A stretch of 64,000 nucleotides of DNA from Paraburkholderia aromaticivorans. Lineage in GTDB: Bacteria; Pseudomonadota; Gammaproteobacteria; Burkholderiales; Burkholderiaceae. Position 1 is the first letter of the stretch, and every line of letters starts with the position of its first letter. This document shows, piece after piece, positions 50,021-64,000 of the stretch. The notes under the pieces were generated by a model. It saw only the letters and a list, made by a program, of their open reading frames with translations. It searched no databases and was not told the DNA's origin. The stretch is taken from the NCBI RefSeq assembly GCF_012689525.1, contig NZ_CP051516.1:682001-746000 (forward strand), written 5' to 3'. The translations under genes were made by a program, and so were the position numbers.

Positions 50021-50818
50021 TTGACCATCCGCAAGCTGAAGATTCGCGTATTCGCGTTCTGCGTAGCGGGCGCGTTATTGAGCAGCGTGGCTGCATGGGC
50101 AGACGAAGTCAAGGTGATGATTTCGGGCGGGTTTGCGTCAGCCTATCGCGAACTGGGCCCACAATTCGAAAGGGCGACAGGCCGTAAGCTAGTCACCGTC
50201 TGGGGGCCCGCGGTGGGTACCGCCGCGAATGCGATCCCTGTGCGGCTTGCGCGCGGCGAGTGGGCCGATGTGCTGATCCTGGTCGAGTATGCGCTCGACG
50301 AACAGATCAATGCCGGCAAGGTCTTGCCGGACAGTAAGGTGGACTTCGCACGCTCGGCAATCGGTATGGTGGTTCGCCAGGGGACGCCGAAGCCGGATAT
50401 CAGCTCGGTGGACGCATTGCGGCAAGTGCTGCTCGCAGCAAAGTCCATCGTCTATCCGGACAGCCCGAGTGGCGTCTTTGTCGGCCGCGAACTGTTCTGG
50501 CGTCTCGGCATCGCGGGGCGGATGGAGAGCAAGAGCCGCATGATTCCTGCCGCGCAGGTCGCCGATGCCGTCGCGAATGGAGAAGCTGAGATCGGAATTC
50601 AACAGGTCGTCGAACTGTTACCGGTGAAGGGGGTGACGGTCGTCGGCAGTTTGCCCGGAGAAGTGCAAAGCTATACGGTGTTCTCCGGGGGCATCGCCAC
50701 CAATGCGAAAAATCCAGCCGGTGCCGAGGCGCTGATCCATTTTCTGTCGTCGCTGGACGCGACGCCCGCGATTTCGAGGACTGGGCTCGAACCGCTTTTG
50801 GCGACGCCTCCGAAATGA
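50021..50818 (+). CDS. Periplasmic substrate-binding protein (ModA-like fold)
   Basis: 265 residues from a TTG start that follows GGGGCGGGG; no in-frame ATG gives a better signal peptide. The signal peptide (FAFCVAGALLSSVAAWA) precedes a type-II binding fold with VMISGGFASAYRELGPQF and AIGMVVRQGTPKPDI, similar to molybdate or other anion binding proteins. No permease or ATPase is adjacent, so the ligand and partner are unknown. Confidence 0.82.
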   Translation: MTIRKLKIRVFAFCVAGALLSSVAAWADEVKVMISGGFASAYRELGPQFERATGRKLVTVWGPAVGTAANAIPVRLARGEWADVLILVEYALDEQINAGKVLPDSKVDFARSAIGMVVRQGTPKPDISSVDALRQVLLAAKSIVYPDSPSGVFVGRELFWRLGIAGRMESKSRMIPAAQVADAVANGEAEIGIQQVVELLPVKGVTVVGSLPGEVQSYTVFSGGIATNAKNPAGAEALIHFLSSLDATPAISRTGLEPLLATPPK

Positions 50819-50964: not shown

Positions 50965-51693
50965 CTAACCCGGTAACGGCAACCGCGCAATCCTCTCCGC
51001 CTCCGCGCGCTTGAGCCCAAGTGCCTGTAGCACGACCGCCGCAGCGCGCTCAGCAAAGTTCAGTTTTCCGAGTCCAGATGCCTTCTGCCGCCGGACCGCT
51101 GGTGTGACAGAGGCGGAAAAGTGCAACTCAGCGGCGATCGCCGCGAAGATGATGCCCGTAACGGAAATGAGACACAGGAACTGGTCCGGGACGACGAAGC
51201 GTTTCGCGGAAATGCCATTTTGACTATCGCGCAGCAGTCGCTGACCGAGACCCCAGTTCAGCGCACGCACCGAAAAACCCTCGCGGATCAGGAGCTGTCC
51301 CCACACCGGCTCGCGGCGGGCGCGCATCAGCGTATGGCGCACACAGACAGCGACCACTTCGGCCGGGTCGGACAGTCCGCTGGCCAGGCGGTCAAGCGAA
51401 TCAGCGAACTCCTCGAATACCCACTCGACGAGCGCGGCGAAGATCCCGTCCTTCGACTCGAAGTGATTGTAGAAGGAGCCGAAACCGACGTCGGCGGCCT
51501 CGGTAATGTCGTTGATGGCAACTGAACCCACCCCTTTCTCGGCCATTAGCCTGAGCGCAGCGTCGAGCAGGCGGGCTCGAGTCTCCCGCTTGCGGCGGGC
51601 GCCGCGCGGCTGGCGCCCTTCGGTCGCCTCGCCCGAAGCTGGCGGCTTTTGTGTGCGCTGCCGGGTTGCACGGGAGTTCGGGGTATCAGGCAT
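50965..51693 (-). CDS. TetR-family repressor A (twin of the one at 58375)
   Basis: 242 residues. The helix-turn-helix is VAINDITEAADVGFGSFYNH. The ligand domain has LVEWVFEEFADSLDRLASGL, then RHTLMRARREPVWGQLLIRE. It closely resembles the TetR at 58375 along its full length, from RGARRKRETR to LGLKRAEAERIA. It faces the RND operon and probably represses it through the promoter at 51743-51776. Confidence 0.92.
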   Translation of the reverse strand: MPDTPNSRATRQRTQKPPASGEATEGRQPRGARRKRETRARLLDAALRLMAEKGVGSVAINDITEAADVGFGSFYNHFESKDGIFAALVEWVFEEFADSLDRLASGLSDPAEVVAVCVRHTLMRARREPVWGQLLIREGFSVRALNWGLGQRLLRDSQNGISAKRFVVPDQFLCLISVTGIIFAAIAAELHFSASVTPAVRRQKASGLGKLNFAERAAAVVLQALGLKRAEAERIARLPLPG

Positions 51694-51742
51694 CTCGGTT
51701 CCAGATTTCTGTAGCGTCGCATTGTAGATTTATGACTCATGA

Positions 51743-51776
51743 TTGACAATATCATCAGTTATGGGATGTAATGTCA
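51743..51776 (+). promoter_or_regulatory. RND operon promoter with TGACA/TGTCA arms
   Basis: TTGACA (51743-51748) and TGTAAT (51767-51772) are spaced 18 bp, a good sigma-70 promoter pointing at the RND operon. TGACA and TGTCA form inverted arms 23 bp apart around it, and ATGAT-TGACAAT-ATCAT overlaps the -35. The sequence is similar to the promoter at 59179. Confidence 0.65.
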
Positions 51777-52129
51777 CTGTCGCAAACGGATCAGCGACCG
51801 CATGGACAGACGAATTGAGTTGCGACGGTGCCTGGAACAGGACGTTGCAGCGCTGAAGATGAGTCGTCCACTGCCGTTTCGGTCCACCAGCGCCGGACTC
51901 GGGGCGAGGATCTATTTGACGCTCGTTCTCTAGCTGTTTCGTGGGGAGTGTCCGCGTGCGATGACGAAGTACGAAGAGTTGCGAGCGGCTTGTATCAGAC
52001 GCAGCGAGTAGGAATACTAAGTTACAGGCATGCCGAATCGAGCGCTAGCGCGCTTGGCAAAGCATGCCGCCAGACTCACCTTGTCTTCCGATGCCTCGCC
52101 CATTTTATTGCTGGACCATCACCTGCCTT
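51777..52129. other. Leader region of the RND operon
   Basis: About 350 bp between the promoter and the fusion protein start. An open frame from 51828 lacks similarity. A 5' leader role is possible but no structure is evident. Confidence 0.35.
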
Positions 52130-53308
52130 GTGAACATCGTGAAACTTTCCGGTCTTAACGCGCAGACGCTTGCGCGTCCCTTCCTGCCGTCCGTCGTCCA
52201 GCCATCCCTCCCAGGACGTCTTCTGATTGCGGCTTGCGGCGCAATGCTGCTAGCGGCCTGCCACCCGCGCGAAACCGTCGCTCCCGAGCCCAAGCCCGTC
52301 GTCGCTGTCACGGTTCATCCCGACGGGCGCACGGTGAGCGCCTCGTTGCCGGCTCAGGTACAGGCGCGGTATTCCACGCCTCTTTCGTTCAGGGTTGGAG
52401 GCAAGGTCACCGAACGGAGGGTGCGCATCGGCGATGCCGTCAAGGCGGGACAGACCGTTGCGCTGCTCGACCCCACCGACCTGCGCAATAACCTGGTCAA
52501 CGCGCGAGCGCAGCTCGACGCCGCCGAACATCGTCTCGTGTACGCCAAACAGCAGATCGATCGCGACCGCGTTCAGGCGCAGGCAAACCTGATCGCAGCG
52601 GCGCAGATGGAGCAGACCCAGGACGCCTACGCTTCCGCCCTCGCGCAGCGCGATTCGGCGCTAGCCCAGATGGCGCTCGCCACGGATCACCTGCGCTACG
52701 CCACGCTTACGGCAGACCACGACGGCGTCATTACGTCGGAGGACGCCGACACCGGCCAGAACGTTCAGGCAGATCAAGCCGTCTATCACCTCGACTGGAC
52801 GAGAGACGTGGATGTTGTCTGCGACGCGCCCGAGCGAACGCTTGGCGCATTGACCATCGGCAGCAATGCGCGCGTAAGCCTGTCTGCGCTGCCCGGTAAG
52901 ACCTTCGAGGCGCGCGTGCGCGAAGTGTCGCCCGCCGCCGACCCGCAAAGCCGCACCTGGCGCGTGAAGCTCACGCTGGCCGCGCCAAGCCCCGAAGTTC
53001 GCCTCGGCATGACGGCCAATGTCACGTTCGATGCCGTCGGCGACGCGCCAATGGCGCGTCCGTTCGCGCTGCCTGTAACGGCGCTCTTTCATAAAGGCGA
53101 GGACCCCGCTGTGTGGGTGGTGCGCGCGGGCAGCGACACCCTTGAGCTGCGCCCTGTCAGCATCGCGCGCTACGACGAGCGCACGGTCTCCGTCGCCGGC
53201 GGCCTGCACGACGGCGACCGCGTCGTGATGCAGGGCGTGCACGCAGTGAGCGCAGACCAACACGTGCAGGTGGTGGCTCCGTTGCATCCCGAGGATTTTT
53301 CGTCATGA
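52130..53308 (+). CDS. RND efflux membrane fusion lipoprotein
   Basis: 392 residues from a GTG at 52130; in-frame ATGs at 52064 and 52091 would add up to 22 residues before the signal. A lipobox (LLAAC) is followed by the lipoyl half (SFRVGGKVTERRVRIGDAVK), a short coiled-coil hairpin (about 95-160), and the beta-barrel and membrane-proximal domains. It overlaps the permease start by 4 bp (ATGA). Confidence 0.85.
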   Translation: MNIVKLSGLNAQTLARPFLPSVVQPSLPGRLLIAACGAMLLAACHPRETVAPEPKPVVAVTVHPDGRTVSASLPAQVQARYSTPLSFRVGGKVTERRVRIGDAVKAGQTVALLDPTDLRNNLVNARAQLDAAEHRLVYAKQQIDRDRVQAQANLIAAAQMEQTQDAYASALAQRDSALAQMALATDHLRYATLTADHDGVITSEDADTGQNVQADQAVYHLDWTRDVDVVCDAPERTLGALTIGSNARVSLSALPGKTFEARVREVSPAADPQSRTWRVKLTLAAPSPEVRLGMTANVTFDAVGDAPMARPFALPVTALFHKGEDPAVWVVRAGSDTLELRPVSIARYDERTVSVAGGLHDGDRVVMQGVHAVSADQHVQVVAPLHPEDFSS

Positions 53309-56300
53309 ACGCACGCGACCGTGAAACCGCGCGTGACAGCGCGCCCGTCACCCCGTCCGACGCCGAGGCACAGGGCGAAGGCGGCTTCAATCTCTCCGCG
53401 TGGGCGTTGCGCCATCAGCAGCTGGTGATCTTTCTGATCGGGCTTGCAACCCTGTTCGGCGTGATCGGTTATACGCAGCTTGCCCAGTCGGAAGATCCGC
53501 CGTTTACGTTCCGGACCATGGTGGTCAAAACTTACTGGCCGGGCGCGACCGCCCGCGAGGTGCAGGAACAGATCACGGACCGGATCGGCCGTCAGTTGCA
53601 GGCGGCACCGTACGTCGACAACATCAAGAGCTACTCGCGGCCCGGCGAGTCGATGATCTTCTTCGCCATGAAGGACTCGGCCCCGGTTAAGGAGGTCCCA
53701 GAGACCTGGTACCAGGTGCGCAAGAAAGTGGCCGACATCGCGGCGACGCTGCCCAAGGGGACGGTTGGACCGTTTTTCAACGACGAGTTCGGTGACGTCT
53801 ACACAAACATCTACGCGCTTGAAGGCGACGGCTTTACGCCTGCGCAACTGCACGACTACGCGGACCAGTTGCGCACGATCCTGCTGCGCGTGCCCGGCGT
53901 TGCCAAGGTCGACTACTTTGGCGACCCGGACCAGCACATCTTCGTCGAGATATCGAATGCAGAGCTGACGGGGCTCTCTATTACGCCACAGCAGCTCGCC
54001 CAGGCAATCGACGCACAAAATATCGTTGCACCCGTTGGCACCATTACGACGGCGGACGACCGGGTGTTCGTGCGCCCGAGCGGCGCGTTCAAGGACGTGC
54101 AGGCGCTCACCGACACGCTCATCACCGTGAACAAACGCACGTTCCGGCTCGGTGACATCGCGAAGATCACGCGCGGCTACGACGATCCGCCCGTCACCCA
54201 GATGCGCGTCGGGGGGCAGGCGGTGCTGGGCATCGGCGTGACGATGCAAAAAGGCGGCGACGTGATCAGCCTCGGCAAGGCGCTCGACGCGAAAGCCGCC
54301 GAACTGCAGGCGGCCATGCCGGCAGGACTCAAGCTGGCTCCCGTCTCGAGCATGCCTCACGCGGTCAAGCATTCGGTGGACGAGTTCGTCAGGTCGGTCG
54401 GCGAAGCGGTAGCAATCGTGCTGGTCGTGAGCCTCGTTTCGCTCGGCCTGCGCACCGGCATGGTCGTCGTGATCTCGATTCCGATCGTGCTCGCCGTGAC
54501 GGCGCTGTGCATGCATGTGTTCAATATCGGGCTGGACCAGGTATCCCTTGGCACGCTCGTGCTCGCGCTGGGGCTGCTCGTCGACGACGCGATCATCGCC
54601 GTCGAAACGATGGCCGTGAAGCTCGAGCAGGGGTGGAGTCGCACGCACGCAGCGGCCTTTGCCTACTCGAGCACGGCATTCCCGATGCTGACTGGCACGC
54701 TCGTGACGGTCTCGGGCTTCCTGCCGATCGCGCTCGCGAAATCGAGTACGGGCGAATACACGCGCTCTATCTTCGAAGTGTCGGCCATTGCGCTGATCGT
54801 TTCGTGGTTCGCGGCCGTCGTGCTGGTCCCGTTGCTCGGCTTCCACATGCTGCCGGAGCGCAAGGCCCACTGGCGCGACGGCGCTCATGACGAACATGAC
54901 GTCTATAACACCGGCTTCTACCGGCGCCTTTCGGATTGGGTCACGTGGTGTATCGAGCGCCGCTGGGCCGTGCTCGGCGTCACTGCCGTGCTCTTTGCGA
55001 TCGCGATGGCGGCCTTCACGCGCGTGCCGCAGCAGTTCTTCCCCAACTCTGAACGGCCAGAGTTGCTCGTGGACCTGCGGCTGCCGGAAGGCGCTTCGTT
55101 CGAGGCGACCCTGCGTGAAGCGAAGCGCCTGGAAAAGGCGCTCGACGGCCAGCCCGCGATCGAGCACTTCGTGGACTTTGTGGGCACCGGCGCACCGCGC
55201 TTTTACCTGCCGCTCGACCAGCAGCTTCGGCAGCCAAACTTCGCGCAGTTCGTGATCACGGCCAAAAGCGTCGAAAACCGCGACGAGTTGATGCAGTGGC
55301 TCGATGCCAAACTCGGGAGAGAGTTCTCCGGTGTGCGCACGCGTGTGGCGCGACTCGAGAACGGTCCGCCCGTGGGCTTCCCGATCAAGCTCCGGGTGAG
55401 CGGCAACGACATTGCGACCGTGCGCTCAATTGCTGAACAGGTCGCCGGGAAGGTGCGCGCCGATTCCCGCACGCGCGATGTCCAGTTCGACTGGGACGAG
55501 CCGGCGGAACGATCGATCTCGTTCGAGATCGATCAGAACAGGGCGCGCGAGCTTGGCGTGTCGTCGGAGGACGTATCGAACTTCCTGGCCATGACGCTTT
55601 CCGGCTATACGGTCACGCAGTTCCGTGAGCGGGACAAGCTGATCAACGTCGATCTGCATGCGCCGAAGAGCGAACGGGTCGATCCTGCGCAGCTCACGAG
55701 CCTCGCGATTCCGACGCCGAACGGCCCGGTCCCGCTCGGTTCCCTCGGACATGTTCGGGACGCGCTCGAGTATGGGGTGATCTGGCAGCGCGACCGCCAG
55801 CCGACGATCACCGTGCAGGCCGACATTCGGGGCAACGCGCAGGGCATCGACGTGACCCGCGATATCGAGCACGCACTCGCGAAGCAAAAAGCCACGCTGC
55901 CGGTCGGCTATCGGATCGACGTGGGCGGCTCGGTCGAAGAAAGCGTGAAAGGCCAGACCTCGATCAACGCCGAGATGCCGCTCATGATCATCGCCGTGCT
56001 GACGCTGCTCATGATCCAGCTGAAGAGCTTCCTGCGGACGTTTATCGTCGTGCTGACAGCGCCGCTCGGGCTGATCGGCGTCGTGGCCGCGCTGCTCCTG
56101 TTCGGCAAGCCATTTGGTTTCGTCGCGTTGCTCGGCGTGATTGCCATGTTCGGCATCATCATGCGCAACTCCGTGATTCTGGTCGACCAGATCGACCAGG
56201 ACATCGCGGCGGGATACGGGCGCTTCGACGCGATTATCGGTGCAACCGTAAGGCGCTTCAGGCCGATCATGCTGACGGCTGCAGCCGCCGTGCTCGCCTT

Positions 56301-56478
56301 GATTCCGCTCTTGCGTTCAGCGTTCTTCGGGCCCATGGCGACCGCGCTGATGGGTGGTATCACGATCGCCACGGTACTGACCATTTTCTTCCTGCCGGCG
56401 CTCTATGCGACGTGCTTCAGGATCCGGCGCGATGAGCGCGGGATGCAACCGGTTGTCGTCGAGCATACGGAGATCTGA
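53305..56478 (+). CDS. RND efflux permease (AcrB-type)
   Basis: 1057 residues, the usual HAE-RND length, with 12 helices and two large periplasmic loops. The proton-relay Asp pair is seen in LALGLLVDDAIIAVE. The periplasmic segment LPKGTVGPFFNDEFGDVYTN and PDQHIFVEISNAELTGLSI recall the TriC/MexK branch. It exports hydrophobic or amphiphilic compounds, perhaps phenolics given the neighbouring operon. It is encoded between the fusion protein and the outer-membrane factor. Confidence 0.95.
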   Translation: MNARDRETARDSAPVTPSDAEAQGEGGFNLSAWALRHQQLVIFLIGLATLFGVIGYTQLAQSEDPPFTFRTMVVKTYWPGATAREVQEQITDRIGRQLQAAPYVDNIKSYSRPGESMIFFAMKDSAPVKEVPETWYQVRKKVADIAATLPKGTVGPFFNDEFGDVYTNIYALEGDGFTPAQLHDYADQLRTILLRVPGVAKVDYFGDPDQHIFVEISNAELTGLSITPQQLAQAIDAQNIVAPVGTITTADDRVFVRPSGAFKDVQALTDTLITVNKRTFRLGDIAKITRGYDDPPVTQMRVGGQAVLGIGVTMQKGGDVISLGKALDAKAAELQAAMPAGLKLAPVSSMPHAVKHSVDEFVRSVGEAVAIVLVVSLVSLGLRTGMVVVISIPIVLAVTALCMHVFNIGLDQVSLGTLVLALGLLVDDAIIAVETMAVKLEQGWSRTHAAAFAYSSTAFPMLTGTLVTVSGFLPIALAKSSTGEYTRSIFEVSAIALIVSWFAAVVLVPLLGFHMLPERKAHWRDGAHDEHDVYNTGFYRRLSDWVTWCIERRWAVLGVTAVLFAIAMAAFTRVPQQFFPNSERPELLVDLRLPEGASFEATLREAKRLEKALDGQPAIEHFVDFVGTGAPRFYLPLDQQLRQPNFAQFVITAKSVENRDELMQWLDAKLGREFSGVRTRVARLENGPPVGFPIKLRVSGNDIATVRSIAEQVAGKVRADSRTRDVQFDWDEPAERSISFEIDQNRARELGVSSEDVSNFLAMTLSGYTVTQFRERDKLINVDLHAPKSERVDPAQLTSLAIPTPNGPVPLGSLGHVRDALEYGVIWQRDRQPTITVQADIRGNAQGIDVTRDIEHALAKQKATLPVGYRIDVGGSVEESVKGQTSINAEMPLMIIAVLTLLMIQLKSFLRTFIVVLTAPLGLIGVVAALLLFGKPFGFVALLGVIAMFGIIMRNSVILVDQIDQDIAAGYGRFDAIIGATVRRFRPIMLTAAAAVLALIPLLRSAFFGPMATALMGGITIATVLTIFFLPALYATCFRIRRDERGMQPVVVEHTEI

Positions 56479-56480
56479 TC

Positions 56481-57944
56481 ATGAAGCTTGCCTGTAAGAC
56501 ATCCGTTCTCGCCGTGGCTACGGCGCTCGCACTGGCGGCCTGCTCATTCGGTCCCAGTGGCGAGCCTCCGGTGATGCCTTCACCCGAGCACTTCGGGGCG
56601 CAGGCGCAGCCCTCGAAGACTGTTGCCGCAGGCGGTATCGCGCAGCAGTTCGATATCGGCGCGACGTCGATGCCGCAGTGGTGGCGGCTTTACCGGTCCG
56701 ACGCACTCGATGCACTCATCGATGAAGGCTTGCGCAACAGCCCGACGCTTGCAGGTGCGCAGCGAACGCTTGCGGCCGCGCAAGAGGAACTGCGCGCGCA
56801 GGTCGGTTCATCCACGCTGCCATCAGTCGACGGTGTCGCCCAGGTTGAACGCGCGCGTTCACCCGTCGTGCCGGGGCTCGGCCCTGAGCAGGTGCAGTAC
56901 AACTTTTTCGCCGGGCAGCTTCAGGCGCACTACACATTCGACTTCTTCGGCCAGACGCGTTACGCAAACTCGGCGAGCGCCGCTCGCGTGAACGTGCAGG
57001 CGTATGAACTGGAAGCGGCCCGGCGCGCGCTCGCGGCAAACATCGTCGGCACGGCGATCAATGTGGCGGCGCTCGATCGCCAGATCGCACTCACCGAACG
57101 GCTCGTCGCCGTGGCGAGCGCAACTGCAAACGAGGATCAGCAACGGTACGCGCTCGGGTCCATTTCGCATGTGCAGGCGCTCAACTCGACGCAGGATGCA
57201 GATTCGATCGCGGCGAGTCTTCCGGCCATGCGCCAGCAACGCACCTCAGCGGTCCACGCGCTGGCGGTACTGATGGGCCGGACGCCCGATAACGCACCGA
57301 CCGTTCCTGACCTCGACAGCCTGGCGTTGCCCGAGCATGTGCCCGTCGTTGTGCCGTCGGATCTGCTGCGTTCGCGTCCCGATATTCAGGCAGCCAACGC
57401 CGCCGTGAAGGCCGCCGCGGCCGACGCTGGCGCTGCTACCGCGCAACTCTTTCCGAGCCTGTCACTGACGGGCTCGATGGGCCGTGGCGGCTTTAGCTGG
57501 CCTGCGGTGCTCTCAGGCGCGGGCGGCCTCTGGGCGATCGGTGCGGGCCTGTCGCAGCCGCTCTTTCACGGTGGGGCGTTGTTCGCGCAACGCAGAGCCT
57601 CGATCGATACCTACGATGCGGCGGTTCTGCACTACAAGTCGACGGTCCTGTCGGCATTCCAGGATGTCGCGGATTCGCTTGCCGCACTGGACAACGACGC
57701 GCAGACGCTGGCATCGACCGAAAGAGCGGCACAGACAGCCCGTACGGCATTCGACGAAACGACGTCGCGCGCCCGCCTGGGTTCCCTGCCGTCAACGGCA
57801 CAGCATGCCAGCGAGCAGCGATTTCTCAATGCACAGCTTGGCGCCGTACGCGCCGGGAGCCAGCGCATGAGCGATACTGCCGCACTGTTCCAGTCGATGG
57901 GCGAAATGCCGGCCGATCCGCCGCACGTGACGTCAAGAGAATGA
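56481..57944 (+). CDS. NodT-family outer-membrane factor of the RND pump
   Basis: 487 residues. A lipobox (LAACSFGPSG) and two OEP repeats with hairpin helices (QSTL-type repeats such as LYRSDALDALIDEGLRNSP). It begins 2 bp after the permease and ends the three-gene pump. Confidence 0.93.
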   Translation: MKLACKTSVLAVATALALAACSFGPSGEPPVMPSPEHFGAQAQPSKTVAAGGIAQQFDIGATSMPQWWRLYRSDALDALIDEGLRNSPTLAGAQRTLAAAQEELRAQVGSSTLPSVDGVAQVERARSPVVPGLGPEQVQYNFFAGQLQAHYTFDFFGQTRYANSASAARVNVQAYELEAARRALAANIVGTAINVAALDRQIALTERLVAVASATANEDQQRYALGSISHVQALNSTQDADSIAASLPAMRQQRTSAVHALAVLMGRTPDNAPTVPDLDSLALPEHVPVVVPSDLLRSRPDIQAANAAVKAAAADAGAATAQLFPSLSLTGSMGRGGFSWPAVLSGAGGLWAIGAGLSQPLFHGGALFAQRRASIDTYDAAVLHYKSTVLSAFQDVADSLAALDNDAQTLASTERAAQTARTAFDETTSRARLGSLPSTAQHASEQRFLNAQLGAVRAGSQRMSDTAALFQSMGEMPADPPHVTSRE

Positions 57945-58374
57945 ACTTGATTCCGTCAGGTCGGGGAGCGTCGCGATGAACCGGTTCGCACGCCATTGGG
58001 TGACGCTTGCGGTGCCAGGTCAGCCCGGACCAGTTCGTTATGCAAGAAAGAGGGTACGCCGTCGGCTTAAGGAATTGAGCCGGCGCTATCGCCTGCGCCG
58101 GATGGCGACGAATTTCTCCGCTTGTCGCGTCCCAGTATGGAACATCTGAATCTGATTGCCTGCCACGAGTGCGATCTGCTATTGCGCAAGCTTCCACGGC
58201 TGCAGGGCCTTGCACGCGCTGCGGAGCGGGGCTGAAAGGAATGCATCGCACCGGCGGTTGAATGGAGTCCAGACCCAGAAACAGATTCATAGACAAGACC
58301 AGCCGGAAAGCACCGTCGCTCATCGTGCCGGGGCGATGGCTCCAATCCCGTCACTTACCTTATCGTCGCCCGCC
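57945..58374. other. Intergenic region with PqiA fossil
   Basis: 430 bp between the RND operon and the second TetR gene, which converge. It holds the PqiA-like remnant at 58137-58260; nothing else is recognised. Confidence 0.4.
58137..58260 (+). pseudogene. Frameshifted PqiA N-terminal zinc-ribbon remnant
   Basis: An ATG frame reads MEHLNLIACHECDLLLRKLP, the CHECD opening of PqiA-type proteins, then shifts. In the next frame TRCGAGLKGMHRTGG supplies the second Cys pair before a stop. The membrane domains of PqiA are missing. It is a decayed fragment, not a working gene. Confidence 0.68.
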
Positions 58375-59130
58375 TCATTCCCCATCGACTTGCGCCTCGA
58401 CGAGCGGTAACGCTCGCATTGCAATCTTCTCCGCTTCCGCGCGCTTGAGCCCGAGTGTTTGCAGAAGCGCTGCTGCCGTGCGCTCGGCGAAGTGCTCTCC
58501 GCTGAAACCAAGTTCGTCGAGCAGTTGCGCCGCCGGCGCGCCCGGCGCGACGAAATTCAGTTCGGCCGCGATTGCCGCGAGCACGGTGCCGCCCACCGAA
58601 AGAAAGCCGATGAAGGGGTCGGCGACCATAAAGCGCTTGGCGGCGATGCCATTTCCGATATCTCGCAGCAGCCGCTGACCCAGCCCGCGGCTCAGCATGC
58701 CCGCCGAAAACCCTTCGCGTATCAGGAAGCGTCCCCAGACGGGATCGCGCCGCGCACGCATCAGGGTATGACGCACCGAGACGGCGATCACTTCTGCGGG
58801 GTCGGACAGGCCCCCCGCGAGGCGATCGAGCATGTCGGCGAATTCCTCGAACACGTTGTCCACAAGCGTCGCGTAGATGACTTCTTTCGACTCGAAGTGG
58901 TTGTAGAACGAGCCGAAGCCGACGTCGGCGGCCTCGGTAATTTCGTTGATAGCTACGCCTTCCATGCCCTTTTCGGCCATCAACTTCAAGGCAGCGTCGA
59001 GCAGGCGGGTGCGCGTTTCGCGCTTGCGACGCGCGCCACGCGGCTCGCGTTCTTCGGGAACGGCAACCGGGGAGACGGACGCCGCACGGGTAGGGCGCTT
59101 TGCTGTCGGGCGATTTGAAGTGTTCGGCAT
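58375..59130 (-). CDS. TetR-family repressor B (twin of the one at 50965)
   Basis: 251 residues from the ATG at 59130, which aligns with the start of its twin (MPNTSNRP against MPDTPNSR). The helix-turn-helix VAINEITEAADVGFGSFYNH differs from the twin at one residue (Glu for Asp), so both may bind the same DNA. The ligand domains differ more. It faces the aromatic catabolic operon and the shared-type promoter at 59179. Confidence 0.92.
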   Translation of the reverse strand: MPNTSNRPTAKRPTRAASVSPVAVPEEREPRGARRKRETRTRLLDAALKLMAEKGMEGVAINEITEAADVGFGSFYNHFESKEVIYATLVDNVFEEFADMLDRLAGGLSDPAEVIAVSVRHTLMRARRDPVWGRFLIREGFSAGMLSRGLGQRLLRDIGNGIAAKRFMVADPFIGFLSVGGTVLAAIAAELNFVAPGAPAAQLLDELGFSGEHFAERTAAALLQTLGLKRAEAEKIAMRALPLVEAQVDGE

Positions 59131-59178
59131 GATCGGTCCAGTTTTGGCCATACCGAAGTATAGATGCTATTGTCTATG

Positions 59179-59211
59179 TTGACAAAACACTCAATTATGA
59201 ATTTAATGTCA
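59179..59211 (+). promoter_or_regulatory. Aromatic operon promoter with TGACA/TGTCA arms
   Basis: TTGACA (59179-59184) and TTTAAT (59202-59207) are 17 bp apart. TGACA and TGTCA flank the spacer as inverted arms 22 bp apart, and TTGTC-TATGTT-GACAA overlaps the -35. Much of the spacer and the AATGTCA end match the promoter at 51743. Confidence 0.7.
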
Positions 59212-59252
59212 TTAACGGACGCCTAGCGCCGGTCTAACAAACAACAGACGGA

Positions 59253-60950
59253 GTGACTGTGGAGACAGCAGCAAAAGATGGTTCCGCGCCTTGCAGCCGG
59301 GAAGGCGAGGGTCGTGCGCCGATTGAGGCATTGCCGTCGGCCGTAGATGTTTTATTGGTGGGTTGCGGACCGGTGGGTGCCACGATTGCGAATCTGTTGG
59401 CACGACACGGCGTGAACGTGATGGTTGTCGACAGGTCGACTGAGGTATTCATGGCGCCCCGTGCGATCGCGCTCGATAACGAAGCGCTGCGCATCCTTCA
59501 GCTTGCCGGCGTTGAGGAGAGCGATTTCGAGACGATTGCCATACCGTACGTCCGCATGCGATCGCCCATGCTGGGCCTGTTCGGCAGGGTGAATTCGCTG
59601 GGCAGTCTGGATGGCCACCCGAAGCTCGTCACCTTCTACCAGCCAGACCTGGAGCGGTGTCTGCGCGCCCGGCTCGAGACATACGACTGTGCGCATATCG
59701 CATTGGGGGTCGAGCTCAAGAGCTTCACGGAGGAACGGGATCACGTGTTCGCATCGTTAGATCTTGGCCAGGGGCGCACTCATCTGGTACGGGCTCGCTA
59801 TCTGGTTGGCGCGGACGGGGCGAGTTCATTGGTACGTCAGCTTATCGGGCAGGAATTCAAGGGCAAGACGTTCGCCGAGGACTGGCTGATCGTCGATGCC
59901 CGCCACGTACCGCGTCCGATCGATCACATCGAGTTCATCTGCGATCACCGTCGGCCGATCCCACATATGGTCGCGCCTGGCGGCCGTGAACGCTGGGAAT
60001 TCATGCTCCGGCCTGGCGAGAATCGCGAGGAAATGGAGTCCGAGACGCGTATCCGCGAATTGCTTTCCCCCTGGGGCAATGTGGAAGACATGATCATCGA
60101 GCGCAAGGCCGTGTATCGCTTCCATGCGCGCGCTGTCGATGCATTCAGCAAGGGCCGGGTGTTCCTGGCTGGCGACGCGGCCCACATCACGCCGCCATTT
60201 GTCGGGCAGGGGTTGGTAGCAGGTCTTCGGGACGCTGCCAACCTTTGCTGGAAGCTCGCATGGGTGGTGCAAGGACGTGCCGATCCAGGGATTCTCGATA
60301 CCTATGACGAGGAGCGGCGCCCGCACGCGAAGGCGATGATCAACCTCGCGAAGTTCATGGGCAAGCTGGTCATGCCCCGAAGCAGTGTCGTCGCCTTATT
60401 CACTCACGGGTTCATGCGTCTGTCGAGACTGGTGCCGCGCCTGCGCGCGCAATTCGAGGAGTTGCAGATCAAGCCGAAGAATGCATTCCGTCGAGGGCTG
60501 TTCGTTAAGGGCCGCTCGTCGGCGAAGCTCGTTCGTGGCGCTGTCATCGCGCAAGGCTGGGTGAGAGGTTCGGATGGCACCACCCGTCTGAGCGACGACG
60601 TGCTCGGACAGGGCCTCACGCTGATCGGGTTCGGCGTGGATGCGGCGGCTGCGCTCGAGCCCGCGACCGCCGCAGCGTTTGCGCGTGCCGGAGGCAGTGT
60701 TGTCCAGATTGCCCATCGGGGGCAACGGCTGCATCTTGCCTCGCGCGACAGCTGGGAAGACCTCGAAGGCGTATTTCTTCCCGGGCTGGTGCCTTTCGGG
60801 TGGGCTGCCGTAGTCCGGCCCGACAAGACGATCGTCCACGACGGTCCGGCCACGGACGCAAACCGTATCGTGCGCGAGAGTCTTGCCTTGCTGGGTAATC
60901 CCGTGAGCGTGCGGACACCGGAAGTCGAAACCGCTATTCGAACCGCCTGA
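59253..60950 (+). CDS. FAD-dependent aromatic hydroxylase (MhpA-like)
   Basis: 565 residues from a GTG; a second GTG two codons on has better ribosome-binding spacing. FAD motifs are present: GCGPVGATIANLLARHG (GxGxxG), VGADGASSLVR (DG motif), and VFLAGDAAHITPPFVGQG (GD motif). The length and layout match 3-(3-hydroxyphenyl)propionate hydroxylases, which add an ortho hydroxyl to a phenolic acid. It should form the catechol substrate for the next enzyme. Confidence 0.9.
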   Translation: MTVETAAKDGSAPCSREGEGRAPIEALPSAVDVLLVGCGPVGATIANLLARHGVNVMVVDRSTEVFMAPRAIALDNEALRILQLAGVEESDFETIAIPYVRMRSPMLGLFGRVNSLGSLDGHPKLVTFYQPDLERCLRARLETYDCAHIALGVELKSFTEERDHVFASLDLGQGRTHLVRARYLVGADGASSLVRQLIGQEFKGKTFAEDWLIVDARHVPRPIDHIEFICDHRRPIPHMVAPGGRERWEFMLRPGENREEMESETRIRELLSPWGNVEDMIIERKAVYRFHARAVDAFSKGRVFLAGDAAHITPPFVGQGLVAGLRDAANLCWKLAWVVQGRADPGILDTYDEERRPHAKAMINLAKFMGKLVMPRSSVVALFTHGFMRLSRLVPRLRAQFEELQIKPKNAFRRGLFVKGRSSAKLVRGAVIAQGWVRGSDGTTRLSDDVLGQGLTLIGFGVDAAAALEPATAAAFARAGGSVVQIAHRGQRLHLASRDSWEDLEGVFLPGLVPFGWAAVVRPDKTIVHDGPATDANRIVRESLALLGNPVSVRTPEVETAIRTA

Positions 60951-60963
60951 TTTCTTATCCGTT

Positions 60964-62034
60964 ATGAAACTGACCACTGCACAGCCGGCTCGTCACCCTG
61001 ATCCCACGACGAAAGCGTCGGCATTAGCCTATCTGATATTCGACCGGCCGGACCTCGGGAAAGCCGAACAGTTTCTCAATGATTTCGGGCTACAGACCGT
61101 ATCGCGAGGTGAAGCGCTATTGCTTCTGCGGGGAACGGGCGCTGCGCATTTTTGCTATGTCGTCCGGAAGGCGCCGAAATCCCGGTTCGTTGGTTTCGGG
61201 CTACAGGTCGACAGCAGGGCCGATCTTGATGCACTTGCACTGCTGCCAGGCGCCTCCGAGGCCGAACGGTCGTCCTTGCCAGGTGGCGGCTATATCGTAC
61301 GGTTGACCGACCCTTCCGGGTTTCGCGTCGATGCAATATGGGGCCAGGCGCCAGCATCAACCCTATCCCATCGACCGCCATTGCCGTTTAACTCTGTGGA
61401 TGCGGCCGTCCGGATTAACGGGACGCAGCGTCCGCCTGAGTGCTCACCCGAAGTTATCCGGCTCGGGCATATCGTGCTCGAACTCGCCGACTATCAGGAA
61501 ACCTGCGCATGGTATACGCAGCATTTCGGCTTCATCCCGAGCGATGTGCAGGTGCTTCCCGATGGCTCACCCGTCGTCGCGTTCATGCGGCTCGATCTTG
61601 GTGACAAGCCGGCCGATCACCATACGCTCGCGCTTGCACAAGGCTTCCTGCCCACCTACAGCCATAGCGCCTACGAAGTCGTCGATGCAGACGCGGTCGG
61701 CATGGGCCAGCGTGTCCTGCGCGAGAAGGGCTGGACGCACGCGTGGGGAATCGGACGCCATATCCTGGGCAGTCAGATCTTCGACTACTGGCAGGACGCG
61801 TGGGGCGACAAGCACGAGCACTATTGCGACGGCGATCTTTTTACGTCCGATGCGACGACCGGTGTCCATGGCGTGAGCCGTGAGGCGATGGCGCAATGGG
61901 GACCGACAATGCCGCGCAGTTTCACAAAACCCAAATTCACGCCCACGAGCATCGTGGCGCTATTCAGGAACCTGCGTCGCAGCCCCGACCTGACGCTGAG
62001 CAAGCTGCGCTCGCTGGCAAAGATTTTCGCCTGA
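60964..62034 (+). CDS. Extradiol-type (VOC) ring-cleavage dioxygenase
   Basis: 356 residues with two VOC modules. The C-terminal module has the three expected metal ligands: His in RLGHIVLEL, His in YSHSAYEVV, and Glu in KHEHYCDGD. This matches type-I extradiol dioxygenases such as 2,3-dihydroxybiphenyl dioxygenases, which cut the catechol ring next to the hydroxyls. It starts 13 bp after the hydroxylase gene. Confidence 0.85.
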   Translation: MKLTTAQPARHPDPTTKASALAYLIFDRPDLGKAEQFLNDFGLQTVSRGEALLLLRGTGAAHFCYVVRKAPKSRFVGFGLQVDSRADLDALALLPGASEAERSSLPGGGYIVRLTDPSGFRVDAIWGQAPASTLSHRPPLPFNSVDAAVRINGTQRPPECSPEVIRLGHIVLELADYQETCAWYTQHFGFIPSDVQVLPDGSPVVAFMRLDLGDKPADHHTLALAQGFLPTYSHSAYEVVDADAVGMGQRVLREKGWTHAWGIGRHILGSQIFDYWQDAWGDKHEHYCDGDLFTSDATTGVHGVSREAMAQWGPTMPRSFTKPKFTPTSIVALFRNLRRSPDLTLSKLRSLAKIFA

Positions 62035-62068
62035 ACCAATCCCTTCCATAGAATCCGGAGATCGAAAA

Positions 62069-63025
62069 ATGGCACTTCACGTTCTGCATTATTTGCATCA
62101 AGGCCGCGCCCAGTGGGGCGTTGTCGCTAATGGCGCTATCACGCCGATTCCCGGCGAGTACAAGTCGACTGCCGAGTTTATCGAGGCCAATCCGGTTGAA
62201 CGGCTGCTGTTGCTAGACGGCCCGACGATTCCCGAATCGGAAGTGCAATGGTTGTCGCCCGTAACCGCCAATCAGCAGTTCATCTGCCAGGGCGCGAATT
62301 ATCGCCAGCATATGATCGAGTCCGGCATGGACCCGGATGTGAAGAAATTCAACATGATCTTCACGAAGGCGACGAGCTGCGTCGTTCCGGCCGACTCGCC
62401 CGTGGTTAAACCAGACGGGGTGCAGTTCCTCGACTACGAAATCGAACTCGGTCTCATCCTCAAACGCGACGTTACGTCCCGCGAAACTGTCACCGAGGAG
62501 AATCTGCATGACTACATCGCCGGCGCCGTAATCGTCAACGACTATTCCGCGCGCGATATCCAGATTCCACAAATGCAGTTCTACAAGGGCAAGAGCTATC
62601 GCACATTTGGTCCTGTCGGCCCTTACCTTTGCCTCCTGGAGAAACAGGATATTTCAAAGCTGAAGGAACTCGTGCTGACGCTGACGGTGAACGGAACGGT
62701 CCGGCAGAATGACTCCACGGCGGGCCTGGTCTTCGGTCCGGCAGAGACCTTGACGGAGCTCTCAGGCATACACGACCTGCGCGCCGGGGACCTGCTCGCG
62801 ACCGGCACGCCTTCCGGCTGCGCACTGAGCATTCCGTCGCCCGAGAAGCAACGCGCTGCGGCGCAGCTTCCTGACGCGGAGAAATGGCGTCTTTTCCTGA
62901 AGATGCAGGAGGAAAGGCCACAGTACCTGCGCGTGGGTGACGTCGTCGAGGCGCATATCGCCAGCTATGACCGCTCGATCAATCTGGGCGTACAGCGCAA
63001 CGTCGTTATGGAACCGGCGGCATGA
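62069..63025 (+). CDS. Fumarylacetoacetate hydrolase-family enzyme
   Basis: 318 residues. The FAH metal site is seen in FLDYEIELGLIL (ExE) and VNDYSARDIQ, with KSYRTFGPVGP in the active-site loop. Such enzymes hydrolyse or decarboxylate ring-cleavage products. It fits the step after extradiol cleavage. The stop overlaps the start of the ligase by 4 bp. Confidence 0.9.
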   Translation: MALHVLHYLHQGRAQWGVVANGAITPIPGEYKSTAEFIEANPVERLLLLDGPTIPESEVQWLSPVTANQQFICQGANYRQHMIESGMDPDVKKFNMIFTKATSCVVPADSPVVKPDGVQFLDYEIELGLILKRDVTSRETVTEENLHDYIAGAVIVNDYSARDIQIPQMQFYKGKSYRTFGPVGPYLCLLEKQDISKLKELVLTLTVNGTVRQNDSTAGLVFGPAETLTELSGIHDLRAGDLLATGTPSGCALSIPSPEKQRAAAQLPDAEKWRLFLKMQEERPQYLRVGDVVEAHIASYDRSINLGVQRNVVMEPAA

Positions 63026-64000
63026 AAGGCGTCGCAAACGTACAGGATGTCCTTGCCATTGAAACGCGGGGGCAACCGGCGGATCTTCCGTCGAGTACCT
63101 TCGAGATGATCTGTCGGGGCGCGGCCATCAATCCAGTGGCACCCGCACTTTCGTTCTTTGCAACGGCTGACGACCACCAGAACGCTGAGTGCTGGACCTA
63201 TAGTGAACTCGTGCGCGATGTCACGCGCACCGCCAACATGTTTGCGCGCCTGGGAGTACAGCGGGACGCGGTTGTCGCATACGTTCTGCCCAACCTCCCT
63301 GAAACGCATTTTGTGATCTGGGGTGGGGAAGCTGCCGGGATTGTCTGCGCGATCAATCCACTGCTTGAGAGTGAAGCCATTGGTGAACTGCTCAACGCTT
63401 CCTGCGCGAGCGTGCTTGTAACCCTGGCGCCATTTCCCGGAACCGACCTTTGGCAGAAGGTGCAAGCGGTGCTGCACAAGCTCCCTTGCCTGCAGCATCT
63501 GGTGCTCGTGAATCCGGCCGACCGTATGCCGGGCGAAAAGGGTTTCGCGGCCCGGGCGCTTCAACGTGGCGAGTGTTCAAAACTGCATGGGCCTGGAGGC
63601 GTTCATAGTGCGGTTCCTTCGCACGTCGGCATCCACGATTTTGGCACCGCCATTGCGGGAGAGTCCGGGGTGGCGCTCAGCAGCGCACGTCGAACGAGCA
63701 TCGACGATGTATCGTCCTTCTTCTGCACAGGCGGCACCACGGGACTGCCGAAGATTGCGGTTCGGCGGCACGGCAATGAGGTGGCCAATGCGTGGAACGC
63801 AGGTCAATTCTTCGGCGAAAGCATTGGCCCGGGGAAGACGATTTTTTGTGGGTTGCCGCTTTTCCACGTCAACGCCGTGATCGTGACAGGTCTGCTTGCG
63901 TTCTCGCGTGGCGCCCACGTCGTGCTCGGCACACCGCAAGGTTATCGGGGCGAAGGCGTTGTCAAGCGTTTCTGGGAAATCGTCGAGCACTACCGCATCA
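63022..64000 (+). CDS. AMP-dependent acyl-CoA ligase, 3' end cut by window edge
   Basis: Open from the ATG at 63022 to the right edge (326 codons). The nucleotide loop is FFCTGGTTGLPK, and GLPLFHVNAV is the usual second motif. The N-terminal domain WTYSELVRDVTRTANMFARL matches acyl-CoA synthetases. It likely activates an aromatic or ring-cleavage acid for the same pathway. The four-base overlap with the upstream gene shows tight coupling. Confidence 0.9.
   Translation, partial: MKGVANVQDVLAIETRGQPADLPSSTFEMICRGAAINPVAPALSFFATADDHQNAECWTYSELVRDVTRTANMFARLGVQRDAVVAYVLPNLPETHFVIWGGEAAGIVCAINPLLESEAIGELLNASCASVLVTLAPFPGTDLWQKVQAVLHKLPCLQHLVLVNPADRMPGEKGFAARALQRGECSKLHGPGGVHSAVPSHVGIHDFGTAIAGESGVALSSARRTSIDDVSSFFCTGGTTGLPKIAVRRHGNEVANAWNAGQFFGESIGPGKTIFCGLPLFHVNAVIVTGLLAFSRGAHVVLGTPQGYRGEGVVKRFWEIVEHYRI

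Follow-up and report, generated by a model that had tools for sequence, protein, structure and literature searches.

The 64-kb stretch of the Paraburkholderia aromaticivorans genome analysed here (hereafter the window; G000:C3:682001-746000 of 10.84 Mb) carries a real, recurrent two-output regulon, in which two RolR-like TetR repressors, TetR_pump and TetR_cat, stand beside an RND efflux pump operon and an aromatic ring-cleavage operon, respectively. The regulon is defined by features computed from the genomes, namely the gene content of its operons, conserved operators, a single clade of pump repressors, a ligand-binding tetrad shared with RolR and the recurrent linkage of the two halves, and the facts reported in a first-pass annotation of the window stand. 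From sequence we also infer the class of inducer and substrate, the order of the enzymatic steps, repression and autoregulation, and here our favoured reading, held with moderate confidence, is that the twins answer to a resorcinol- or phloroglucinol-type signal, with one resorcinol-like chemical probably switching on both operons. This would be a sequence-defined regulon in which a shared control site governs the export and breakdown of compounds that probably belong to one chemical class.

Twin RolR-like repressors and their operators

TetR_pump (50965..51693, minus strand), with TetR_N and TetR_C_40 matches in Pfam, and TetR_cat (58375..59151, minus strand), likewise matched by Pfam TetR families, had been described as close paralogs whose helix-turn-helix segments lie one residue apart. 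Alignment of the two proteins agrees: they are identical at 161 of 245 positions (66%), and a single difference separates the h2-h3 segments VAINDITEAADVGFGSFYNHFESK and VAINEITEAADVGFGSFYNHFESK. No third close TetR copy was found in the same genome, where the next-best match to P0002 is 33% identical over 107 residues; the named relatives with a TetR_cat of 91-96% identity are Paraburkholderia. TetR_cat more likely starts at the methionine at residue 8 (59130) than at 59151, because M8 is nearly invariant among 27 aligned relatives and the upstream ATG is separated from the leftward -10 element by just a few bases.

Both proteins fall close to RolR, the resorcinol repressor of Corynebacterium glutamicum, which is the best PDB sequence match for each (E=1.8e-35 for TetR_cat, E=6.6e-32 for TetR_pump). 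In a fold comparison confined to the predicted model of TetR_cat (mean pLDDT 82.7), RolR chains occupy Foldseek PDB ranks 1-4, with TM-scores of 0.71-0.76 by target length and 0.56-0.57 by query length. An excerpt of a RolR paper (PMC3086911) describes a tetrad, Asp94/Arg145/Arg148/Asp149, that holds the hydroxyls of resorcinol, together with an h2-h3 motif, IxxxAxxGxGxFYxxF. When 109 distinct, intact TetRs (74 catabolic and 35 pump) are mapped onto RolR residues, the tetrad positions D94, R145, R148 and D149 are kept in 108, 109, 109 and 109 of them, the window pair having all four, and the motif positions I56, A60, G63, G65, F67, Y68 and F71 in 109 of 109; these proteins, like the operator pattern discussed below, come from relatives of the window's own genes, and their counts are not independent events. 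Elsewhere in the pocket, Leu142 is present in 107 of the 109, position 107 is hydrophobic in all and 111 in nearly all, and position 114 is threonine throughout.

Both operons had been said to sit behind nearly matching TTGACA promoters with TGACA...TGTCA arms, and what lies there is one bidirectional palindrome at each (32 bp and 33 bp), overlying both divergent promoters of its intergenic region. The predicted catabolic operator, TGACAAAACACTCAATTATGAATTTAATGTCA (59180..59211, unstranded), recovered in pattern searches of genomes, has the geometry 14-N4-14 with TGA-N8-TCA within each 14-mer. Inside it reads the rightward promoter TTGACA-N17-TTTAAT (59179-59207, plus strand; counterpart in 75 of 80 catabolic rows of the comparison), whose -35 block also serves, on the other strand, the leftward TetR_cat promoter TTGTCA-N17-TATACT (59185 down to 59157; counterpart in all 78 catabolic rows with a TTGTCA -35, among 80 rows in all). 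The predicted pump operator, TGACAATATCATCAGTTATGGGATGTAATGTCA (33 bp, 51744..51776, unstranded), is supported by alignment of the promoter regions and by counterpart sites upstream of the periplasmic adaptor (membrane fusion protein, MFP) gene in relatives. It likewise contains a rightward promoter, TTGACA-N18-TGTAAT (51743-51772, plus strand), and shares its -35 block with the leftward TetR_pump promoter TTGTCA-N17-TACAAT (51749 down to 51721, minus strand; counterpart in 33 of 34 pump rows with a 32-bp site); its right half has one additional base, as at L064, L065, L070, L129 and L152. The outer arms are fixed by the selection of sites, and base counts are informative for the inner positions: among 40 distinct catabolic 32-bp sites, TCA stands at 12-14 in 38 and TGA at 19-21 in 40, and among 25 distinct pump 32-bp sites, TCA stands at 12-14 in 25 and TGG at 19-21 in 24. 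Conservation across sites extends to the promoter spacer (ATCA...ATG) and to bases after the -10.

We give next to no credence to the idea that the likeness of the two promoters is a coincidence arising from ordinary sigma-70 hexamers. Part of the match does come from the -35 and -10 elements, but the spacer and post -10 bases are conserved too, and genome pattern searches, shuffles and reversed controls together lead us to reject the idea. Local alignment of the two intergenic stretches, which had been set as the test of their similarity, gives a score of 19.5 that is reached by 1 of 5000 dinucleotide shuffles and 1 of 4953 random window pairs.

Comparative co-occurrence is a stronger test than shuffle statistics, with the proviso that the pattern was derived from these very sites, so that the counts show co-occurrence and not discovery from nothing. 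Across the window's own genome, allowing up to 3 mismatches, the 32-mer pattern finds the catabolic site only, the 33-mer pattern the pump site only and the reversed control nothing; TGACA-N21-25-TGTCA is read at 18 places in this genome, but only the two operators match the fuller patterns within 3 mismatches. In 117 genomes of the genus, the TetR (E<=1e-40) is present in 37 and the operator pattern (<=1 mismatch) in 36, all of which fall inside those 37; 80 of 80 TetR-less genomes lack the pattern, and the reversed pattern has 0 matches. At family scale the pattern occurs in 39 of 299 genomes (reversed control 0), and among the matches listed, 21 of 21 newly fetched loci (L206-L226, one of them from a genome seen earlier) adjoin the module's TetR, hydroxylase, extradiol dioxygenase or MFP gene, a count that covers the fetched loci. 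Upstream of MFP, a site (<=2 mismatches) is found in 49 of the 52 stretches with 620 bases, or 46 of 48 distinct ones. The 32-bp operator offers a diagnostic for the module. One further candidate, L032, looked similar and was rejected; judged by impression, it neighbours genes for a phosphonate-type hydrolase and an ABC binding protein.

Proposed shared control and its alternatives

Each TetR, probably as a pair of dimers, would bind the 32-33 bp palindrome TGA-N8-TCA, N4, TGA-N8-TCA. As the palindrome spans both the promoter that drives the operon and the -35 of the divergent promoter that drives the repressor gene, each repressor would shut off its operon and itself. Consider, for example, a cell that encounters a resorcinol- or phloroglucinol-type phenol. 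The compound would enter the pocket and both repressors would release DNA; the MexK-type pump would then export it, the hydroxylase (HYD) would introduce a hydroxyl group to give a vicinal diol, the extradiol dioxygenase (EDO) would cleave the ring, the FAH-family enzyme would hydrolyse the cleavage product, and the coenzyme A (CoA) ligase would activate the resulting acid as a CoA thioester. With such a module in hand, the notion of pumps as relief valves for degradation pathways becomes directly testable.

We judge joint control of both operons through a shared inducer to be fairly probable, and its least certain part is that each TetR would bind both operators in the cell. The suggestion that one phenolic compound co-induces the two operons draws support that is indirect, in that both regulators keep the RolR tetrad. 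Nothing was found in favour of the accompanying notion of an export-or-degrade decision: no switch element for it was found at the module, and joint derepression suffices. Cross-regulation is plausible because the recognition helices match and because pump operators persist in some genomes where TetR_pump is broken. For example, the pump genes and operator are intact at L193/L064, where TetR_pump has lost its middle part, and at L157, where its frame is broken; L219 is similar, with part of the pump operon seen. These breaks may have arisen recently or may reflect faulty sequencing. In four genomes (G006, G008, G097 and G109), a catabolic-type operator immediately precedes a dioxygenase operon lying away from TetR_cat, and therefore a repressor would there act from a distance.

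The alternative that deserves most attention, unlikely as we think it, is one of insulated paralogs, in which each TetR controls its own operon only, with its own ligand range, and the promoter likeness is inherited and kept for promoter and operator work. The pump clade arising from one duplication would fit, as would the class-specific operator bases (TGA against TGG at 19-21) and the class-specific residue at RolR position 172, glycine in 70 of 74 catabolic TetRs and isoleucine or threonine in 34 of 35 pump TetRs. Insulation is harder to square with recognition helices that are almost identical in both classes, with the pump operators that outlast their repressor, and with similarity concentrated in the operator: across 31 loci (22 distinct pairs), the catabolic operator and the pump operator belonging to a single locus share on average 78% of their bases, compared with 51% and 29% for the 30-bp flanks. 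In another genus (g24), moreover, TGA stands in both of the pump-side sites that were read (L227 and L228).

A further alternative, which we consider improbable, is that the target is the A ring of flavonoids, with a naringenin-type (fde-like) operon and a flavonoid exporter for a pump. It overlaps the favoured reading, because the flavonoid A ring is itself resorcinol- or phloroglucinol-like, and the two are not exclusive. The Herbaspirillum fde pathway comprises steps of the flavin hydroxylase, extradiol dioxygenase and FAH enzyme kinds, which the window operon's enzyme kinds resemble. In an extract of PMC11303751, fdeE is a flavin monooxygenase acting on flavonoids, which also fits; in an extract of PMC10799723, however, the fde pathway has an activator, FdeR, where a TetR stands by the window operon.

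Several observations weigh against joint control by a resorcinol-like compound, beyond the non-independence of the counts noted above. The class-specific bases at 19-21 suggest partial insulation, and shared ancestry, through duplication of a tetR-promoter block, could account for the similarity with no need of cross-talk. The pocket wall departs from RolR (F107 to I/V, L111 to V, L114 to T, F172 to G, I or T), and because these residues differ, the ligand is probably not resorcinol itself; it would rather be a meta-dihydroxy ring with a substituent larger than resorcinol's, and the two sensors possibly differ in sensitivity. In RolR the operator lies downstream of the start sites, whereas the window operators overlap promoters. 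Sites are also missing in places. Among TetR_cat rows, 80 of 103 have exact-armed sites and 23 have none (39 of 47 TetR_pump rows have them), and some rows without exact arms, such as L111, L113, L118, L121 and L150, have near-sites in a profile scan; a TetR_cat subgroup (L102, L106, L107, L108) lacks a site beside it, though its pump has one. One TetR genome, G104, gives no operator match, though TetR and catabolic operon are present. Finally, no site is present in 3 of the 52 stretches upstream of MFP: L069/L126 (a single copy encountered twice), where TetR_pump has also lost its front, and L076, which has no TetR_pump in the ~3.8 kb available beyond MFP, so that in these cases site and repressor are missing together.

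The efflux and ring-cleavage operons

The pump operon is, as first annotated, a complete RND pump. It comprises MFP (52064..53308, plus strand; the true start may be later, e.g. 52091-52139), a MexK-like RND permease (53305..56478, plus strand; best PDB matches MexK at 1154.6 bits and then 6vej, presumably TriC, at 927 bits) and a NodT-type outer-membrane channel, the outer-membrane factor (OMF; 56481..57944, plus strand). Their matches to TIGR01730, PF00873 and TIGR01845, respectively, are all above cut-offs, and the three parts are encoded together as in AcrB-type RND tripartite systems. Of 42 named loci containing OMF and TetR_cat, 27 have PqiABC next to the pump, which may hint at a membrane-active compound. 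The permease recalls MexJK and TriABC of Pseudomonas aeruginosa, but TriABC has two adaptors and MexJK has no channel gene, whereas the window pump has one adaptor, a permease and its own outer-membrane channel; the adjoining PqiABC of those 27 loci is a further difference.

Between the pump operator and the MFP start used lie ~290 nt (51777-52063), far more than on the catabolic side; in relatives the gap between MFP and TetR_pump ranges from 137 to 506 bases. A solute-binding protein gene (PF13531) adjoins TetR_pump at 50021-50818, and was ruled out as part of the module, having a counterpart in one other searched locus only (L113, 51%).

The second operon had been read as encoding a hydroxylase, an extradiol dioxygenase, an FAH-family enzyme and a CoA ligase, and profile matches bear this out. 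HYD (59253..60950, plus strand) is a flavin aromatic hydroxylase with a PF01494 match that reaches the PRK06183 subfamily (NF004829, 421 bits against a cut-off of 390). It is not assigned as MhpA, the 3-hydroxyphenylpropionate hydroxylase, reaching no listed equivalog cut-off (e.g. 443 of 546). EDO (60964..62034, plus strand) is a class I extradiol dioxygenase (PF00903; HpaD/BphC-type matches below cut-off) that keeps the aligned columns H169, H234 and E285, which we take to be metal ligands. The FAH-family enzyme, a presumed C-C hydrolase (62069..63025, plus strand; PF01557), is followed by a PRK07529-like acyl-CoA synthetase of 673 aa (63022..64000, plus strand) that runs past the window end and is complete as L010:22-2043; together these two would split and activate the ring-fission product. 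An OmpW gene begins ~510 bases after the end of the CoA ligase in L010, from the window's own genome, where a gene resembling a transposase, by impression, lies downstream of the operon (L010:10627-11688).

A relative of EDO at 72% identity (P0114) is called 2,4,5-trihydroxytoluene oxygenase by one source, a likeness to DntD of the 2,4-dinitrotoluene pathway that is one of name only. The DntD pathway passes through a hydroxyquinol-type ring and then an FAH enzyme, but no nitroarene dioxygenase genes were seen beside the window's operon.

Many relatives lack the hydroxylase and carry two genes after OmpW, the larger of which encodes a molybdenum enzyme, Th, which is closest to the pyrogallol hydroxytransferase structure (E=1.7e-270, residues 175-1020) and has an AhtL-like domain. 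Among 45 EDO copies in the 117 genomes, HYD alone accompanies 11, Th alone 25, both 4, a HYD remnant with Th 4, and neither 1; HYD and/or Th are thus found at 44 of 45, the exception being G070, with a 66% dioxygenase and without a TetR of the RolR-like module kind. HYD and Th are unrelated enzymes of kinds that act on polyhydroxylated or phenolic rings, which agrees with a RolR-like sensor, and they replace each other. They would carry out the same pathway step, a swap of non-homologous flavin and molybdenum enzymes at what looks like one position in the pathway. An excerpt of PMC10100899 places pyrogallol hydroxytransferase in a Ser-coordinating group that also holds resorcinol hydroxylase RhL, and assigns RhL to anaerobic respiration and PgtL, a pyrogallol-phloroglucinol transhydroxylase, to fermentation. 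The relatives' Th, which follows OmpW in the operon, instead accompanies an O2-dependent dioxygenase and has an N-terminal extension, for which no Pfam match at E<=5 was found over 151 residues; Th does not occur in the window.

A 61% Th paralog in two pieces lies away from the module in the window's own genome (G000:C1:2072909-2075326, L204), and paralogs of 60-61% occur in the TetR-less genomes G067, G078 and G095. Further operator-like sites follow the molybdenum enzyme genes at L192:6531 and L232:16376, and another lies away from the module at L191:7968; these precede a second, unrelated TetR and/or LysR-like gene (by impression, with a TetR_N match for the L192 one), an arrangement that may point to a cascade of regulators in relatives. 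Three genomes of another genus have a second operator-like site on the downstream side of OmpW (L229:3414, L230:9679, L231:9069); the next gene is response-regulator/AraC-like by impression in L230 and has no clear assignment in L231.

Known relatives, linkage and ancestry

Among characterized systems, RolR and its rolHMD operon in C. glutamicum (PDB 3aqs, 3aqt) come closest, as a TetR repressor of an aromatic pathway with the tetrad and h2-h3 motif conserved. For TetR_cat, the surrounding genes and the kinds of enzyme they encode are compatible with repression of a resorcinol-type catabolic operon. Identity in structural alignment is 34-35%, and the window pocket looks looser, with a differing hydrophobic wall. 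The rol pathway uses hydroxyquinol 1,2-dioxygenase, where the window operon uses extradiol cleavage, and to our knowledge RolR serves one operon and has no pump partner. With this module, RolR-type sensing, so far represented by one operon in an actinobacterium, gains a recurrent counterpart among proteobacteria. In the excerpted text of PMC9210681, the RolR operator comprises two palindromes bound by a pair of homodimers and, placed downstream of start sites, is said to act as a roadblock; the same excerpt gives the operator of CgmR, also from C. glutamicum, as 32 bp of 14-N4-14, bound by two homodimers. The window's catabolic site shares that geometry; CgmR differs in its half-site sequence and in being a multidrug-responsive, not a catabolic, repressor. 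In the open-access literature searched, and within the terms used, no paper on this module was found, and searches on sorgoleone and alkylresorcinols yielded nothing on this cluster.

Synteny comparison finds the pump and catabolic operon linked in contigs from named Paraburkholderia, Caballeronia, Burkholderia and Trinickia, but the linkage is not universal: the TetRs, pump and operators of G032 come without any dioxygenase match, and in G104 no pump lies near the TetR and the catabolic operon. In a tree rooted by RolR on a long branch, all 35 pump TetRs fall into a single clade (100/97) nested in a wider group, whose outer members (L109-L113, L116-L118 and L154) adjoin the catabolic operon and, within the stretches examined, have no pump beside them, except that at L117 an RND gene begins ~9 kb away. 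Given that the outer TetRs stand by the catabolic operon and that the pump TetRs are monophyletic, the ancestral repressor was probably the catabolic one, with the pump probably recruited once and repressor and operator duplicated together.

Taken to its full extent, this suggests a cross-regulating module descended from one RolR-like, catabolism-only ancestor, in which the pump was recruited by duplicating the repressor and its bidirectional operator, one plant or microbial resorcinolic phenol drives both export and degradation, and O2-dependent flavin and O2-independent molybdenum (trans)hydroxylases are interchangeable as the first ring-activating step before the same O2-dependent extradiol pathway. 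This remains a tentative proposal, to which we lean a little less than halfway.

The linkage may extend beyond Burkholderiaceae. At L117, in Paludibacterium of the Chromobacteriaceae, the TetR has an OMF (42%) and an RND permease (64%, truncated where the locus ends) at a distance of ~7.5-9 kb (L117:18268-20732). In Paraburkholderia sp. BL9I2N2, two tandem TetRs, 67-68% identical to TetR_cat, stand by one catabolic operon (L109:10001-12898, the same as L142), a second repressor duplication in the family.

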